From positions 1 through 26,098 of the IMG/VR virus record IMGVR_UViG_3300037488_001394: a stretch of DNA of 26,098 bases, one strand, 5' to 3'. Shown here one piece after another: positions 2,270 through 7,643 of the stretch. How positions within the stretch are numbered: the first letter of the stretch is position 1; the number at the start of each line of letters is the position of its first letter. The translations under genes and the position numbers were made by a program. Below the pieces are notes generated by a model. It made no database searches and was not told the DNA's origin. It worked only from the letters and a program-made list of their open reading frames with translations. This DNA is from a virus.

Positions 2270-2342
2270 AGCGCGGAGGTCGGAGTCGAACCGCCGTCTC
2301 CCGTCTGGAACAACGGGTGCACTTCCCTTGTGCTATCCGCGC
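2270..2342 (-). tRNA. tRNA-Gly(UCC)-like element, possibly degenerate
   Basis: The minus strand folds as a cloverleaf. The acceptor is GCGCGGA/TCCGCGC (7 perfect pairs). The D stem is GCAC/GTGC with loop AAGGGAA. The anticodon stem is CCCGT/ACGGG, with an 8-base loop TGTTCCAG instead of 7. The T loop is TTCGACT on a stem GGCGG/CCGAC with one G-A mismatch. One extra C separates the T stem from the acceptor. The discriminator is T at 2270 and no CCA is encoded. The best reading of the anticodon is TCC (Gly), consistent with U73. The two extra bases and the mismatch suggest a decayed or atypical tRNA, or a tRNA-like leader of the mom-like gene. Confidence 0.5.
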
Positions 2343-2348
2343 AAAAGT

Positions 2349-2390
2349 TCATAGAGTTTCATCCTCGTACTGCGGCACCTTCGTCTTCAC
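2349..2390 (-). CDS. Possible 13-residue minigene or gene remnant
   Basis: GTG 2390 overlaps the stop of the CsrA-like gene (GTGA). The short frame (MKTKVPQYEDETL) ends in TGA that overlaps ATG 2352 (ATGA). Both junctions follow the coupling rule of this operon. It may be the surviving start of a gene replaced when the tRNA-like element and mom-like gene arrived, a translated minigene, or chance. Confidence 0.25.
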   Translation of the reverse strand: MKTKVPQYEDETL

Positions 2391-2572
2391 TTGATCTCCT
2401 CCCGCATGATGCGGAGCCGCTTGTCGCAGCAGAAGGCCATTCGGACCTTCTCGCCGAGGATCTCCGCGATGTCGATGTATCCGAGTGGCTCGCCGTCGAT
2501 GGAGAGCGAGACGCGCTCGCCCTCCTTTCGGACGAGCACGACGCAGCCGTGCCGTTTCGGTTGTTCGTTCAT
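2387..2572 (-). CDS. CsrA-like RNA-binding translational regulator
   Basis: ATG 2572 overlaps the upstream stop (ATGA); the product is 61 residues, the size of CsrA. It carries the CsrA pattern: VVLVRKEGER (11-20), corresponding to the usual LVLTRKxGE; GEKVRMAF (40-47), corresponding to G.KVR(I/L)G; and REEI (57-60) with the conserved RNA-contacting Arg. The 'AP' after the second motif is replaced by CD, and a few residues are inserted around 24-31. CsrA dimers bind GGA motifs near ribosome-binding sites and block or stabilise mRNAs. The gene's own leader holds a 13-bp hairpin and two GGAGACG motifs, consistent with autoregulation. Identification rests on motif recognition; divergence leaves activity open. 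Confidence 0.65.
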   Translation of the reverse strand: MNEQPKRHGCVVLVRKEGERVSLSIDGEPLGYIDIAEILGEKVRMAFCCDKRLRIMREEIK

Positions 2573-2820
2573 GCTCTCGTCTCCTTCGTCTCCTCGCCTG
2601 GGCCGGATATTGAGTCCGGCCCAGGCGCGCTCGGGAGACAGCAGCGCGCGTCCTGCGCGGTGAGCGAGCGGCATCCTATAGCCGCTCGATACTCGGCCAT
2701 GCGGCGAACATAGGTTCGCGCGAGAAGTTCGCAGGAATCTTCGACGCGCATCCGGTTCACCATAGAGAGAAGACCCTCCATCACAGACGCGGAGAGATGA
2801 GGTCGGCGCGGCTTGCTCAT
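2569..2820 (-). CDS. Hypothetical protein, 83 residues
   Basis: ATG 2820 overlaps the stop of the Gp157-like gene (ATGA). The N-terminal part is basic (MSKPRRPHLSASVMEG) and is followed by a helix with LLARTYVRRMAEYRAAIG. The last ~25 residues are Pro/Gly-rich and low in structure, and that segment of the gene carries the 13-bp hairpin at 2595-2627. The shape of the 3' end may be dictated by the RNA element rather than by the protein. Function unknown. Confidence 0.6.
   Translation of the reverse strand: MSKPRRPHLSASVMEGLLSMVNRMRVEDSCELLARTYVRRMAEYRAAIGCRSLTAQDARCCLPSAPGPDSISGPGEETKETRA
2595..2627 (-). promoter_or_regulatory. 13-bp perfect hairpin in the leader of the CsrA-like gene
   Basis: Arms CGCCTGGGCCGGA and TCCGGCCCAGGCG pair without a mismatch around a 7-base loop. 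On the minus strand the hairpin is followed by AGGAGACGAAGGAGACG and then the ATG at 2572. It lies in the 3' end of the preceding gene, so it is also coding. There is no T tract, so a terminator is unlikely; an RNA element governing translation or processing fits better. Confidence 0.6.
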
Positions 2821-3784: not shown

Positions 3785-4176
3785 CGCTGCGCCTTCCTCT
3801 CGACGCGGCGCGCGTAGCCGAGCGTCGACGGCTTCGTGTGACCGCGCGGCCCGCCGTTGTGGATTCGCGCCACGGTCAGGAGATCCCAGGACGGCGCGTA
3901 GCGGGTGAGGTAGGCGAGCACGACGCGCTCGGCGATCGCCTGATCGCGCACCGACTGGTAGCCGAGCGCGCGGAGGTCGGGATGCCGCTCGGTCGCGTCG
4001 ATCCAGTAGGCGCGGTGGATCTGGTACGGGCCGAGCGCGCGGCCTCCGTCGCCGACGGCGTTCGCCGGGTCGGCGTCGCCGCCGGTCTCGACGGCGCGAA
4101 TCGCGTCGAGGATCGGGCGCGTGTCGAGCGCCGCCGGCGGCGGCGCGAGCAGGAGAGAGAGGAGGAGGATGTCCAC
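3781..4176 (-). CDS. Invertebrate-type (destabilase-like) lysozyme, probable endolysin
   Basis: From GTG 4176 the 131-residue product begins with a hydrophobic stretch (MDILLLSLLLAPPPAALDT), a likely signal or signal-anchor. Then come AVETGGD (E30 as the likely catalytic Glu), AVGDGGRALGPYQIH (40-54; D43 a possible second acid) and ARIHNGGP (103-110), which match i-type lysozymes. These cleave the glycan strands of peptidoglycan. An in-frame ATG at 4200 lies inside a leader hairpin; alignment with four other copies of that leader places the true start at the GTG, although the Shine-Dalgarno here is weak (GCGAGAC). A secreted endolysin can act with only a small membrane-depolarising partner. 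Its place among early-type genes is unusual. Confidence 0.7.
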   Translation of the reverse strand: MDILLLSLLLAPPPAALDTRPILDAIRAVETGGDADPANAVGDGGRALGPYQIHRAYWIDATERHPDLRALGYQSVRDQAIAERVVLAYLTRYAPSWDLLTVARIHNGGPRGHTKPSTLGYARRVERKAQR

Positions 4177-4192: not shown

Positions 4193-4209
4193 GCCGGCAT
4201 CGTGCCGGC
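4193..4209 (-). promoter_or_regulatory. Leader stem-loop, copy E (lysozyme gene)
   Basis: GCCGGCA and TGCCGGC pair over 7 bp around a CGA loop. It begins 6 bases after the stop of the preceding gene and is followed by GCGAGACAGCC and GTG 4176. It is the fifth copy of the conserved leader. Here the ATG in the loop happens to be in frame with the gene. Confidence 0.75.
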
Positions 4210-4215
4210 GGTGAA

Positions 4216-4470
4216 TCAGATGATGCCGATCATGCGCGCCTCATGCTCGCTCATCGAGCAGCCTTGATAGGCGTGAAGGCCGTTGCGCTGCACGATGCGA
4301 TAGACGGCGGCTCCGCGAAAGGGTCGCTCTGCGGGGCTAGAGCGGCGAACCTGCACAAGATGTACGCCGCCAGTCGAGGCTGTGTCGCGACCGCCGCTGA
4401 TATCAAACGAGTAGGGGCGTTCGGCGATGGTCTGATAGCGACGGGAAGAGGTCGGAAGCTTGCTGCTCAT
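4216..4470 (-). CDS. Hypothetical protein, 84 residues
   Basis: ATG 4470 follows the conserved leader (stem-loop, then AAGGAGACAGCC). The same frame is open upstream to ATG 4557, which would overlap the previous stop. That extension is Arg-rich and runs through a hairpin, so I reject it. The protein has Arg-rich beta-like segments (VHLVQVRRSSPAERPFRG, VYRIVQRNGLHAYQG) and a short helix near the end (SEHEARMIGII). No family recognised. Confidence 0.6.
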   Translation of the reverse strand: MSSKLPTSSRRYQTIAERPYSFDISGGRDTASTGGVHLVQVRRSSPAERPFRGAAVYRIVQRNGLHAYQGCSMSEHEARMIGII

Positions 4471-4482
4471 GGCTGTCTCCTT

Positions 4483-4499
4483 GCCGGCATCGTGCCGGC
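4483..4499 (-). promoter_or_regulatory. Leader stem-loop, copy D
   Basis: GCCGGCA and TGCCGGC pair over 7 bp around a CGA loop. On the minus strand it is followed directly by AAGGAGACAGCC and ATG 4470. No promoter is evident nearby, so the element works without one. Confidence 0.8.
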
Positions 4500-4515
4500 G
4501 TGACGGGTTGGACTC

Positions 4516-4539
4516 GGGAGCCGTCTTGCGACGGCTCCC
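4516..4539 (-). terminator. Hairpin with GCAA tetraloop, possible attenuator or RNA-processing site
   Basis: GGAGCCGTC and GACGGCTCC pair perfectly (plus one further G-C pair) around GCAA, a stable GNRA tetraloop on the minus-strand RNA. It lies 15 bases after the stop of the 140-residue gene. No T tract follows, so it would not be an efficient intrinsic terminator. It may protect the upstream message from 3' decay. Confidence 0.45.
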
Positions 4540-4553
4540 CGGTCCCGCTCGTC

Positions 4554-4976
4554 TCATCGTCTCGCGCTCTTCATATCCTCTGCTCCGATCGTCCAGTTGC
4601 GAACTCCGGCGATTTCGCAAAGGACATCTCCAGCGTTCTTGACCGCTCGGTTCACTAGAGCGGCCGCTTCCGTCGTGAGGTAGTCTCCACACTCGCAGGC
4701 CTGGTACTCGTATCCGCGAGCAGCTCCAAGGCAGAGTTCCGGCTTGTAATCACGAACCATCGCTTGCCAGTTTGCGCGCGTGTACTCCGACGAGATTTCC
4801 GCAGCCTGTTCGCTGTAGCGATAGGCAACAGACCGGGCGTTCTCGGCGAAGAGAATCTTGGCGGCTTCGACTGCCTTGGAATCTTCCACCATCCGAGTGC
4901 CGTACGGCGAATGATTAATCGAGGCCCAAGCGGCGATGATGTGGATGGTTTCCGGCGGAACGATGTAGGCGCTCAT
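4554..4976 (-). CDS. Conserved phage protein of unknown function, 140 residues
   Basis: ATG 4976 follows the leader stem-loop and GAGGAGACAGCC. The start MSAYIVPPETIHIIAAWA and the block AENARSVAYRYSEQ (around residues 45-58) resemble a family of uncharacterised proteins found often in phages and plasmids, which I know only as hypothetical proteins. Four cysteines cluster in the C-terminal half (LCLGA, ACECGDYL, VLCEIAG). No catalytic motif is visible. It has its own probable promoter (-10 TATGAT at 5023-5018). Confidence 0.65.
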   Translation of the reverse strand: MSAYIVPPETIHIIAAWASINHSPYGTRMVEDSKAVEAAKILFAENARSVAYRYSEQAAEISSEYTRANWQAMVRDYKPELCLGAARGYEYQACECGDYLTTEAAALVNRAVKNAGDVLCEIAGVRNWTIGAEDMKSARR

Positions 4977-5110
4977 GGCTGTCTCCTCTGCGGCATCGTG
5001 CCGCGGTTGGTCTGCACATCATACGGCTTTTCCGGCTCGCTGTTGCACACTTTGCCGGGAATCTCAGAAATATATCGGGAATCCTTCCGGCTCGGCTTGT
5101 TATCAGCCAT
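4973..5110 (-). CDS. Hypothetical small protein, 45 residues
   Basis: ATG at 5110 overlaps the stop of the 234-residue gene (TGATG), and its TGA overlaps the ATG of the 140-residue gene (ATGA), so it exactly fills the gap. The product is polar (starts MADNKPSRKDSRYIS) and ends TMPQRRQP, encoded by the leader stem-loop itself. A probable promoter also lies inside it. The fit at both ends supports translation. The alternative is that this is an untranslated leader in which the frame is open by chance. Confidence 0.45.
   Translation of the reverse strand: MADNKPSRKDSRYISEIPGKVCNSEPEKPYDVQTNRGTMPQRRQP
4990..5004 (-). promoter_or_regulatory. Leader stem-loop, copy C
   Basis: GCGGCA and TGCCGC pair over 6 bp around a CGA loop, followed by GAGGAGACAGCC and ATG 4976. 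The outer pair is G-C where copy A has C-G: covariation that keeps the stem. Confidence 0.8.
5018..5046 (-). promoter_or_regulatory. Probable sigma70-type promoter for the 140-residue gene
   Basis: The -10 is TATGAT (5023-5018, five of six consensus), with a 17-base spacer and a weak -35 GCAACA (5046-5041). The start point would fall just before the leader stem-loop. Confidence 0.45.
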
Positions 5111-5814
5111 CAGAACGGAATGCCGTCGGCGAGCGCCGCGGCCGTCTCGCGCCGGTAGTAGGCCTCAAACGCAGCAGGATCGACGGAGAGCGCCTCCGGC
5201 GCGCGAGGAGCCGTAGGCGCCGCCGCGAGCGCCGGCGCTCTGTCGAGGCTTTCCGGCGGCTTTCCCGCGCGCCGCCAGAACTCCTCCGGCGACATCTCGA
5301 GGCTCCAGCGGCACGACTCGCGATCGTAGCCGCGCAGCGAAGCGCCGCGCAGGATGTCGGTCACGGCGAGCAGCCTCGCCTTGCTCCAGGTCGACGGCTC
5401 GCCTCGGAGACCGTCCCATCCGAGCGACTGGAGGTAGCCGACCGCCGCGTCGATCCGCGCCGGCGACGCTCCCGCGATGAGCGCGAGCTGCTCGTCGCGG
5501 TCGCGATTCGTCGCGTCGCTCCAGTAGATCCGATCGCGCTCCTTCTGATCCTGCTCGGTCTGGCGCTTGATCGCCTCGAGCCGCGGCCCGTCGATCTTCC
5601 GCTGCGCCGCGTAGAACTCGAGGAACTTGCCGGGGATGAAACGGGACTTCGCGCCGCCGTGCGCGATCGCGTAGTCGTCGAGCGCTGCCCAGGCGCTCGC
5701 GAACGACAGCGCCGCGATGCGAGACCTCGCGAGCGTGAACAGCACCTCGTCCATCTCCCCGCGGAACATCGAGCGAACCCGATCGGACCACTTCACCAGC
5801 TCCTGATCGTTCAT
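5110..5814 (-). CDS. Hypothetical early protein, possibly replication accessory, 234 residues
   Basis: First gene after the promoter and leader at 5881-5832. It is largely helical. The N-terminal ~70 residues (WSDRVRSMFRGEMDEVLFTL, later ALDDYAIAHGGAKSRFIPGKFLEFY) have the layout of phage proteins near replication genes, in which a small helical bundle is followed by 'R.P....L'. The middle (RDRDEQLALIAGASPARIDA) is charged. The C-terminus is Ala/Pro-rich (ALAAAPTAPRAPEA), then a short helix ending DGIPF. I do not recognise a firm family; helicase-loader or primosome accessory is only a guess. ATG 5814 is preceded by the leader stem-loop and a weak AAAGAGAGA site. Confidence 0.55.
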   Translation of the reverse strand: MNDQELVKWSDRVRSMFRGEMDEVLFTLARSRIAALSFASAWAALDDYAIAHGGAKSRFIPGKFLEFYAAQRKIDGPRLEAIKRQTEQDQKERDRIYWSDATNRDRDEQLALIAGASPARIDAAVGYLQSLGWDGLRGEPSTWSKARLLAVTDILRGASLRGYDRESCRWSLEMSPEEFWRRAGKPPESLDRAPALAAAPTAPRAPEALSVDPAAFEAYYRRETAAALADGIPF

Positions 5815-5831
5815 CTGCTATCTCTCTTTCT

Positions 5832-5846
5832 GCGGCATCGTGCCGC
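5832..5846 (-). promoter_or_regulatory. Leader stem-loop, copy B
   Basis: GCGGCA and TGCCGC around a CGA loop, followed by AGAAAGAGAGATAGCAG and ATG 5814. This copy has the most diverged ribosome-binding region. The outer pair covaries with copy A. Confidence 0.75.
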
Positions 5847-5852
5847 GTCTCG

Positions 5853-5881
5853 AGCATATCGGCGCGCGCGAAGCGCGTCAT
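5853..5881 (-). promoter_or_regulatory. Probable promoter of the left-arm operon
   Basis: -35 ATGACG (5881-5876), 17-base spacer, -10 TATGCT (5858-5853), each four of six matches to the sigma70 consensus. It lies between a terminator and the leader stem-loop of the 234-residue gene, so the transcript would begin at or just before the stem-loop. Confidence 0.5.
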
Positions 5882-5885
5882 GCAG

Positions 5886-5925
5886 AAAAAGCGAAACCGC
5901 CGCGGTGCATCTCGCGGCGGTTTCG
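5886..5925 (-). terminator. Rho-independent terminator
   Basis: CGAAACCGCCGCG (5892-5904) and CGCGGCGGTTTCG (5913-5925) pair over 13 bp without a mismatch around an 8-base loop. On the minus strand they are followed by CTTTTTC. It ends any transcript arriving from the right before the operon promoter at 5881. Confidence 0.8.
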
Positions 5926-6119
5926 ATCCTTCCCCCCCATTCCGTGAACGACGCAAGCCGTGGTCGAGCGGCTACCGTCGTCTACGGTTTTCTCTGGGAC
6001 TGCGAACAGCACCAGCAGAGAAGAGATACGGCTGGACTCATCCGGAGGAGGAGAGAGATCAGCCGAAGCAGTCAGGCTCACGGCGAGGCAAGCGGAACGA
6101 CGCCGGAAGTCAGAGTGCT
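5886..6119 (-). ncRNA. Candidate small RNA or structured antitermination-type leader
   Basis: A promoter with a perfect TTGACA (6155-6150) points into about 230 bases that end at a strong intrinsic terminator and hold no convincing gene. A second terminator just upstream (6253-6189) isolates the unit from the recT transcript. Inside, ACGACG/CGTCGT and AGCCG/CGGCT form a two-part stem (5948-5981) with a 2x2 internal loop and the apical loop CUCGACCA. The only long frame (67 codons from a GTG) reads through the terminator. It may be an independent small RNA, or a leader whose structure lets polymerase pass the terminator, as with HK022 put RNA. Confidence 0.5.
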
Positions 6120-6125
6120 AGGGGG

Positions 6126-6155
6126 GTTTTAGGGGGGAACCGCACATTCTGTCAA
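6126..6155 (-). promoter_or_regulatory. Promoter with consensus -35
   Basis: TTGACA (6155-6150), an 18-base spacer and TAAAAC (6131-6126; four of six). The flanks are C-runs on this strand (G6-TTTTA-G6 on the other). It is the best -35 that I found in the window. The nearest downstream element is the terminator at 5925-5886. Confidence 0.6.
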
Positions 6156-6188
6156 GGGGGAAAGTTTGCGGATTCGTGAAATGGCGTG

Positions 6189-6253
6189 AAAAAACATCCC
6201 CTCACTCGCGCGTCGTTCAGGGTCCTTTCGAACCTACGCGCGGTGAGGGGATG
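6189..6253 (-). terminator. Strong Rho-independent terminator after the recT transcript
   Basis: CATCCCCTCAC (6195-6205) pairs with GTGAGGGGATG (6243-6253) over 11 bp. After one bulged base CGCGCG pairs with CGCGCG, leaving a 24-base loop. On the minus strand six Ts (6194-6189) follow at once. It sits 48 bases after the stop of the gene at 6301, so it closes the recT unit. Confidence 0.85.
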
Positions 6254-6300
6254 GAGAAGGCCGCGGTGTCGGCCTCGAGACGGCACTCGCCGCCCCTCTC

Positions 6301-6666
6301 TCAATAGGTCTGGCGCGCCCTCCAAAGGAGGATCATCCGCGCGGCCTTGCCGACGATCTCCGCGCGCAGCACGGGATCGACGGACTCCCACGCGAGTTCA
6401 TGCGCGACGATCGTCTTCCGGTCGCGGCTCAGCTGGTGCGCGAGCCGCGATCGCTGCGGCGTGAGATGTCCTGGTCGCAAGTCGAGGCAGAGACCGACCG
6501 CGAGCAGCTTGCGGACCGGCTTCGGCGTCTCGCTGTCGCCGGCCAGGATTTCTGCCGCGGCGCAGCACTCGGTCATGGTGTAGGGCCGGAAGACCCTCGG
6601 GTCTTCCTGCACGATTCCGACCTGCGATCGGATCGACTCGGTGCCTGGGAGGTCAAAGCGTTCCAC
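6301..6666 (-). CDS. Hypothetical protein with possible DnaA-C-like helix-turn-helix, 121 residues
   Basis: The start is GTG 6666, chosen because GAGGAGGT stands 5 bases before it; the gene then overlaps the end of recT by 14 bases. The N-terminal part (SQVGIVQEDPRVFRPYTMTE) is unlike anything I know. The central block PQRSRLAHQLSRDRKTIVAH (70-89) resembles the DnaA C-terminal helix-turn-helix signature, in which a helix is followed by GRDHTTVLHA. Phages do carry such stand-alone domains. If right, it would bind DNA near the origin or regulate transcription. It shares the transcript with RecT and ends at a strong terminator. The HTH assignment is tentative. Confidence 0.55.
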   Translation of the reverse strand: MERFDLPGTESIRSQVGIVQEDPRVFRPYTMTECCAAAEILAGDSETPKPVRKLLAVGLCLDLRPGHLTPQRSRLAHQLSRDRKTIVAHELAWESVDPVLRAEIVGKAARMILLWRARQTY

Positions 6667-7615
6667 GGCGCACCTCCTCGTCGGTCGCGTTTCGCAGGAT
6701 GTCGACCAGCGCCGACTTGCCGTTCGGGAACTTCCTGACGCGACCGACGACCCAGACCCCGAAAGTCGCGTTCGCCTCGAGCGCGCCGGCGAACCGCTCC
6801 TCAGCCGCGATGACCCGGCCGTCGCCGATCGCGACCTTCCAGTATTTCCCGACCTGCTCGCCGAGAGCGTCGGGACCGATGAGAACCGACTCGCAGTCCT
6901 GCTCCTGCTGCGACGGCTTGGCGTTGAGGAGCGCGAGGTTCTCCGCATCGCGGGAAACGGCTCGGGAAGGCTCGCTGCGGCCCTCGATGACGGGGAGCGC
7001 CTTCGGCTCGGCCTTGGCGCGGGACGGCCTCGGCGGGGCTTCCACGGCCTCTCCGTCGATGACCGTAGCCTGTGCCATCTCCTCGGAGGTATAGAGGCCG
7101 GAGAGTTCCGCGGGGAACGCCTTCCGCAGCGCGAGCGCCTCGGCGCACTTCGCGAGCATCAGAGCCGGCATCCGCGACCACATCGCGGTCGGCGAGCCGT
7201 CCTTGTTGCGCTGCGCGTACTCGCTCCAGAGAGCGGTCGCGACGCAAGGCTCGCGGAAGCCCTTCCTCCAGACGCCGACCCGCGCCGCGAACGGCGGCTT
7301 CTCGCTCGTCCATAGATCCGCCGGCCTGCCGTCGGCGTCGAACCAGAGCGGAGGCGTCTGCCCCTCGTACTCGCGGCTCCGCTGCGCGACGAGCCGGAAC
7401 CCGTCGATCGAGGTCTGCGGCTGACGGACCTTCTTCTGCGCCTTGTTATCCCATCGCTCGATGAAGAAGATCTGGCGCGCGAACGGGCAAAGCCCGGTGC
7501 GATCGCAGATCATCGCGAACAGCGCGAGTTCGTCAGGCGACGCGCCCGATGCGATCGTGCGAGCCAGCAGCGCCAGCCGCTCGGGATTCCCGTGGAAAAG
7601 TTCGATTTCGCTCAT
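6653..7615 (-). CDS. recT: RecT/Bet-family single-strand annealing protein
   Basis: The 320-residue protein carries the phage recombination protein Bet pattern: ARTIASGASPDELALFAMIC (18-37), TGLCPFARQIFFIERWDNK, then QPQTSIDGFRLVAQRSREYEGQTPP and KGFREPCVATALWSEYAQ. The annealing core ends with WSRMPALMLAKCAEALALRKAFP..LSGLYTSEEM. A C-terminal extension of ~115 residues (PRPSRAKAEPKALPVIEG and on) is less conserved and may bind partners. These proteins pair complementary single strands during phage replication and recombination, normally with a partner exonuclease, which is not seen in this window. The gene has its own promoter (7685-7657) and a leader stem-loop, with CAAGGAGACAC before ATG 7615. 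Confidence 0.9.
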   Translation of the reverse strand: MSEIELFHGNPERLALLARTIASGASPDELALFAMICDRTGLCPFARQIFFIERWDNKAQKKVRQPQTSIDGFRLVAQRSREYEGQTPPLWFDADGRPADLWTSEKPPFAARVGVWRKGFREPCVATALWSEYAQRNKDGSPTAMWSRMPALMLAKCAEALALRKAFPAELSGLYTSEEMAQATVIDGEAVEAPPRPSRAKAEPKALPVIEGRSEPSRAVSRDAENLALLNAKPSQQEQDCESVLIGPDALGEQVGKYWKVAIGDGRVIAAEERFAGALEANATFGVWVVGRVRKFPNGKSALVDILRNATDEEVRRGTL

Positions 7616-7628
7616 GTGTCTCCTTGCT

Positions 7629-7643
7629 CCGGCATCGTGCCGG
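7629..7643 (-). promoter_or_regulatory. Leader stem-loop, copy A (recT)
   Basis: CCGGCA and TGCCGG around a CGA loop, followed by AGCAAGGAGACAC and ATG 7615. The outer C-G pair replaces the G-C of copies B and C. Confidence 0.8.

Follow-up and report, generated by a model that had tools for sequence, protein, structure and literature searches.

Proteins of the CsrA/RsmA family recognise hairpins whose published loops read A(N)GGA or ANGGAN (PMC4066749), and in the glgC leader of Escherichia coli a high-affinity CsrA hairpin is located just upstream of the Shine-Dalgarno sequence (SD), to which the dimer bridges from the hairpin (PMC7652899). Genes for CsrA are also carried by phages, including F116 and Vibrio and Pseudomonas phages, and have been counted since 2020 (PMC7366521). 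Here we analyzed the genome piece of an uncultured phage, a complete IMG/VR record of 26,098 bases (IMGVR_UViG_3300037488_001394, in the following the window), in which five early genes are preceded by a hairpin with a covarying stem and a conserved loop, and which also encodes a CsrA-like protein of 61 amino acids. With a probability of about 0.6 we assume that this protein binds the leader hairpins and thereby regulates how translation of the early genes, and probably of its own gene, is initiated.

The genes of the window are located on the minus strand, where portal to tail genes (26021 to 7940) are followed by recT and the early/replication arm. The motif CGGCACGATGCCG occurs exactly five times, always on the minus and thus coding strand (7642-7630, 5845-5833, 5003-4991, 4497-4485 and 4207-4195), and is not found in the opposite orientation anywhere in the window. 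Dinucleotide shuffles contained on average 0.17 copies and never five, and the five stem-loops which an initial annotation had placed before left-arm genes were recovered at exactly these sites. Within the window the structural genes contain no copy, as also noted there. Scored with a covariance model (R1) of the leader, the five copies reach 35-41 bits, and the model detected new copies in relatives as well. The hairpins and the genes behind them are as follows:

7629..7643, minus strand: hairpin A, CCGGC-ACGAT-GCCGG, before recT; 35.2 bits with model R1
6653..7615, minus strand: recT, RecT-family single-strand annealing protein, 320 amino acids (Pfam PF03837, E=2e-30; PHROG 2780)
5832..5846, minus strand: hairpin B, GCGGC-ACGAT-GCCGC, before gene B; 38.3 bits
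5110..5814, minus strand: gene B, conserved, 234 amino acids
4990..5004, minus strand: hairpin C, GCGGC-ACGAT-GCCGC, before gene C; 40.7 bits
4554..4976, minus strand: gene C, 140 amino acids
4483..4499, minus strand: hairpin D, GCCGGC-ACGAT-GCCGGC, before gene D; 35.6 bits
4216..4470, minus strand: gene D, 84 amino acids
4193..4209, minus strand: hairpin E, GCCGGC-ACGAT-GCCGGC, before gene E; 35.1 bits
3781..4176, minus strand: gene E, destabilase-like lysozyme domain (PF05497, E=1e-6), GTG start at 4176, chosen by the leader

From A to E, the end of the stem and the start codon are 13, 17, 13, 12 and 16 nucleotides (nt) apart, with a purine-rich site between them in every copy. The GGAGAC-type site that had been ascribed to each copy is present in A, C and D, and its place is taken by GAGAGAT in B and GCGAGAC in E. 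Promoters had been proposed before A, B and C; a strict sigma-70 scan at the leader copies detected none, and weaker -10-like hexamers, which recur in relatives (TATGGT, TATGCT, TATACT), make promoters at these three positions plausible. A search against Rfam at gathering score yielded no family for the hairpin: the only match in the window is to a transfer RNA (tRNA), and six relatives gave none.

Relatives, all of them IMG/VR contigs inspected over their full length, were collected in three ways. A search with protein B led to two contigs (G001, locus L131, and G002, locus L132) with the same leaders and different stems, in which GGC/GCC, GTC/GAC and GCC/GGC flank a constant GCAYGATGC. G003-G005 were added by a motif scan, and G007-G017 by aligning A2, which follows recT, a route independent of both the hairpin and the CsrA-like protein; G000 denotes the window. 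Looser searches were discarded: CGGCACGATGCCG combined with GGAGA gave 97 single matches in IMG/VR, mostly due to chance, and a too-loose motif pattern in genome contigs returned chance matches and did not reveal a host.

In 35 distinct hairpins all five pairs have changed on both sides and 99.4% of the cells are paired, a percentage that is partly circular as these hairpins were selected for pairing. The number of doubly changed cells is 45 versus 14.4 in shuffles, and the covariation score is 0.725; shuffles reach 0.171, and sliding the partner leaves no more than 0.106. Because of the selection for pairing, leaders were also chosen by the downstream protein alone. Leaders picked by homology to protein B (29-52% identity to the protein of the window) contain the hairpin in 11 of 12 cases and, taken alone, 11 doubly changed cells versus 5.2 in shuffles, and the hairpin precedes all six recT homologues of the window's clade. 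It is absent from all 12 Gp157 leaders and from those of A2, which served as internal negative control; both genes sit close behind their upstream neighbours.

6301..6666, minus strand: gene A2, 121 amino acids, present in all relatives (alignment A1); leader without hairpin in 16 of 16

In the four more distant recT homologues the gene is not immediately preceded by a hairpin, and in G011, G005 and G013 it precedes a small open reading frame (ORF) just upstream of recT. Among 27 contigs sharing only recT, model R1 found no match above 14.3 bits, apart from three higher ones at loci that had been fetched by the motif; the RecT relatives L104-L130 have the gene in common with the window but lack its leader. 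Relatives with the same genes and randomly varying leaders, which would speak against a functional element, were sought, and this phage group contained none; the distant contigs with recT only lack the element.

A count of hairpins with ANGAY or ANGGA loops and at least 5 Watson-Crick pairs in nine contigs gave 47 in sense and 9 in antisense orientation, and 4.5 (maximum 11) after mononucleotide shuffling of the sense strand within 1-kb blocks. In 37 leaders the 5-bp stem ends 13-20 nt before the start codon, a near-fixed distance that places it at or just upstream of the SD. The element is almost certainly an RNA hairpin with a covarying stem, as judged from these alignments, and the compensatory changes that had been read from the five copies alone extend to the relatives, including leaders chosen by protein. 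In G005, G011 and G013 two family hairpins are found about 100 nt apart in one leader before a small gene (L298 1135-1250; L307 14398; L310 14467), and the RNA between them is possibly structured.

The A-T next to the loop, which the initial annotation counted as a stem pair, is not conserved as a pair, with A..C and A..A at this innermost position in relatives. The loop therefore comprises 5 nt and is closed by C-G, and the stem is one pair shorter. All five loops of the window read ACGAU, with A-Y-G-A-Y as the general near form. Across the relatives, ANGAY loops (ACGAU, AUGAU, AAGAU, AUGAC, ACGAC, AAGAC, AGGAC) are found together with ANGGA (ACGGA, AUGGA, AAGGA) or AGGA loops, and rarely with AUGAG and perhaps AUGA and AGGAA. 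Loops of the ANGAY or ANGGA kind account for 36 of 143 leader hairpins with a 5-nt loop, compared with 1.7 expected. Both kinds coexist in the single genomes G011, G012 and G015, and the orthologous B leader carries ACGAU in the window, AUGGA in G009 and ACGGA in G015, which indicates that ANGAY and the CsrA-type loop are interchangeable at one orthologous site. The A(N)GGA loop of CsrA/RsmA targets is absent from the five ACGAU hairpins of the window, is present in orthologous or related leaders of G009, G012, G014 and G015-G017 and is partly matched by an AGGAC loop in the leader of the csrA-like gene.

2387..2572, minus strand: csrA-like gene, 61 amino acids, putative hairpin binder; Pfam CsrA with E=8.8e-4, below the cut-off

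The AlphaFold2 model of this protein contains the five strands b1-b5 of the CsrA fold, with a predicted local distance difference test (pLDDT) score of 84.5. Its best fold and sequence matches are RsmN/RsmF of Pseudomonas aeruginosa (4krw, 4kji, 4k59): RsmN 4krw is the top fold match in the PDB with a probability of 0.98, followed by matches of at most 0.6, and the sequence matches in the PDB are RsmF, RsmN, CsrA and one unrelated protein. The topology of RsmN is rearranged, whereas the protein of the window is predicted to have five strands and no C-terminal helix. R44 of CsrA is essential for RNA binding, and the equivalent R57 is an arginine in all seven aligned proteins (alignment A2) and doubtful in the G013 homologue. 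Alignment with two canonical CsrA sequences by hhalign gave a probability of 5.6% and a P of 0.007. A search with the CsrA-like alignment returned only three contigs, two of them already known, and a profile of the protein and its relatives detected a CsrA-like ORF in all 12 contigs covering the arm (G000, G001, G002, G005, G009, G011, G012, G014-G017 and, more weakly, G013). Sequence and predicted fold together make it likely that the 61-amino-acid protein is a member of the CsrA family. This gene had been overlooked in the initial annotation, which also missed that it is the loop that is conserved and that relatives have ANGGA loops, a pointer to the CsrA/RsmA family. The CsrA-like proteins of L131 (5052-5321) and L132 (3156-3419) have a C-terminal CxxC...CxxC tail resembling a zinc ribbon, which is missing in the window.

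The csrA-like gene has a leader of its own, with the element order hairpin, UGUCUCC, stem and SD:

2645..2659, minus strand: sixth, diverged hairpin, CGCGC-AGGAC-GCGCG; same element before the csrA-like start in 7 relatives
2634..2640, minus strand: UGUCUCC, complement of GGAGACA; sole copy on the coding strand of the window
2595..2627, minus strand: 13-bp hairpin between this anti-SD and the SD of the csrA-like gene

The hairpin followed by UGUCUCC is found 58-77 nt before the csrA-like start in G000-G002, G009, G012 and G015-G017, with AGGAC, AUGAC or ACGAC in the loop. GGAGACA, to which UGUCUCC is complementary, is the conserved SD region of the regulon, and in the predicted folds of G000, G001 and G009 UGUCUCC pairs with the SD of the csrA-like gene itself (z -2.9 to -4.5). 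As UGUCUCC falls in different reading frames of overlapping coding sequence in G000, G001 and G015, it seems to be conserved as RNA. The csrA-like gene is probably autoregulated through this leader.

From the identity of the loops, the co-occurrence of protein and hairpins and the leader of the csrA-like gene we infer that the 61-amino-acid protein binds the hairpin loops in the 5' leaders. From a site about 13-17 nt ahead of the start codon a dimer would extend to the SD or cover it, so that translation of recT, B, C, D and E might be set jointly at initiation, and the csrA-like gene would be controlled via the same hairpin and the anti-SD. Our guess is that the effect would be repression, as for CsrA on E. 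coli glgC, rather than activation or protection of mRNA, both of which are also known for CsrA (PMC7652899).

Several points weigh against this assumption. The loops of the window lack the GGA needed by known CsrA proteins, which means that a changed specificity has to be assumed; they have 5 nt versus 6 nt in the best-studied CsrA loops, and systematic evolution of ligands by exponential enrichment (SELEX) on CsrA favoured weaker stems. Bridging to the SD cannot apply to every leader, as GGA is missing from the SD in B and E. The protein scores 19.6 bits with the Pfam CsrA model (PF02599), under the curated cut-off of 27, and the Foldseek match to RsmN (TM 0.59) has an E of 0.27, which is a weak basis for membership in the family. 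The co-occurrence of protein and hairpin is confounded by common descent within one phage group, the B homologue of G014 has no hairpin, and the csrA-like genes of G005, G011 and G013 lack the leader of hairpin plus UGUCUCC.

Compared with the glgC-type hairpin, the position just upstream of the SD, the A(N)GGA loop in about half of the relatives, the presence of a CsrA-like protein and a second GGA in most SDs of the phage group are the same. Differences are that the phage targets its own early genes, that the loops have 4-5 nt and read ANGAY without GGA in the clade of the window, and that each gene has one near-identical hairpin instead of several scattered sites. The phages with known csrA likewise carry a gene of this family (PMC7366521), but the CsrA proteins of the listed records share about 48-98% identity with E. 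coli CsrA, and a search with the protein of the window matches none of them. Four other, unrelated csrA-bearing phages did not show a similar group of leader hairpins with ANGGA loops. Two similar hairpins with AGGA loops are located upstream of genes in L341 (phage F116, with canonical CsrA-like genes), 33510 and 39447, possibly by chance. CsrA sites and phage-borne csrA genes are known. In the open-licence literature, no paper was found that describes the action of a phage CsrA on phage mRNAs, and none that reports such a protein together with dedicated hairpins forming a regulon of phage genes. With respect to the question of what phage csrA genes regulate, one phage family here combines such a protein with a covarying set of hairpins on its own early mRNAs. 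If our assumption is true, ANGGA, AGGA and ANGAY are natural variants in which shifts of RNA specificity in a CsrA-type protein can be followed, and the missing GGA in the window, the main weakness of the hypothesis, would become its main novelty.

Among the other explanations, binding of the hairpins by a host protein or another phage protein fits best, and we regard it as unlikely. Host CsrA could be the binder of the ANGGA forms, which are good sites by the published rules, but is not expected on loops without GGA, i.e. on all five of the window. A2 is conserved in every contig, which is no evidence as it was the search bait, and its sequence reads like that of a helix-turn-helix protein that would bind DNA. 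The hairpin in the leader of the csrA-like gene itself also speaks against another binder.

Still less probable is a hairpin that acts without protein, as a 5' stem protecting the mRNA or keeping the SD region open. A-C have stable stems that probably lie near 5' ends, and the SD is mostly unpaired in predicted folds, but the loop is confined to ANGAY/ANGGA, a restriction not needed for plain stabilisation, and D and E are located between operon genes with no promoter seen and therefore away from a 5' end.

Operators in the form of palindromic DNA bound by a repressor have been proposed for the extended start-associated sequence (ESAS) of cluster K phages and for inverted repeats of cluster EG; for the window they are very improbable. 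The start-associated sequence (SAS) and ESAS of cluster K phages and the repeats of Microbacterium clusters EF and EG also precede start codons of non-structural genes, inverted repeats are known in other phages, and some copies of the window lie beside promoter-like hexamers. In the known repeats the sequence is conserved, whereas here the stem varies freely with pairing kept and the loop is conserved; moreover, the hairpins are oriented like their genes, their loops are not symmetric, no promoters precede D and E, and the distance to the start codon is near-fixed. The precedent of cluster K, named in the initial annotation, does not hold: its GGGATAGGAGCCC element with 17-bp arms of conserved sequence is unrelated to the leaders of the window, in which the arms vary with compensation, and for ESAS the departures in the arms do not support RNA pairing, and DNA-binding sites are favoured (PMC3203893).

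Equally improbable are N4-like promoters, in which a phage RNA polymerase would use the hairpin, or short upstream ORFs that begin at an AUG in the loop. Read with a 3-nt loop, the hairpin resembles N4 promoter hairpins, but no large virion polymerase gene was seen; ACGAU-G includes AUG, and translation from it in A, C and D would give a 7-codon ORF ending at the main start, but ANGGA loops lack AUG and the frame in the G001 recT leader has no stop. Terminators were ruled out by the lack of a U-run, and a mobile repeat by orthologous positions and free stem sequence.

Going beyond the binding of the hairpins by the 61-amino-acid protein, one may tentatively imagine a private Csr system in this uncultured phage family, doubtful as a whole, in which the loop specificity has shifted from GGA to ANGAY and which comprises an early-gene regulon, self-control and a CsrB-like decoy RNA in G001. 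The possible decoy is an extra unit at 2205-2390 of L131 with a B-type promoter, a structured RNA (z -4.1), a TCGCGC-ATGAT-GCGCGA hairpin and a terminator. The minimum-energy fold of this RNA does not form that hairpin.

Some further features of the window were noted. Between A2 and B, the stretch at about 6155-5890 (minus strand) is probably non-coding and contains TTGACA-18-TAAAAC and a terminator-like hairpin (5925-5892), which makes it a candidate for a phage small RNA; it is recognisable in G001, and in G005 only its promoter part. Upstream of copy D, between C and D, lies a 10-bp hairpin with a GCAA loop and without U-run (4516-4539, minus strand), which is kept in G002 with GCGA in the loop. 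A Mom-like protein, i.e. a DNA-modification gene, is encoded at 1765-2352 on the minus strand (PF25680, E=9e-13) and has a distant homologue in G001. The tRNA-like match (2271-2343, minus strand, 31.8 bits, anticodon unclear) is located at the start of this ORF. Furthermore, an exact direct repeat of 45 bases (1141-1185 and 1506-1550) is found at the 3' ends of two adjacent small genes.

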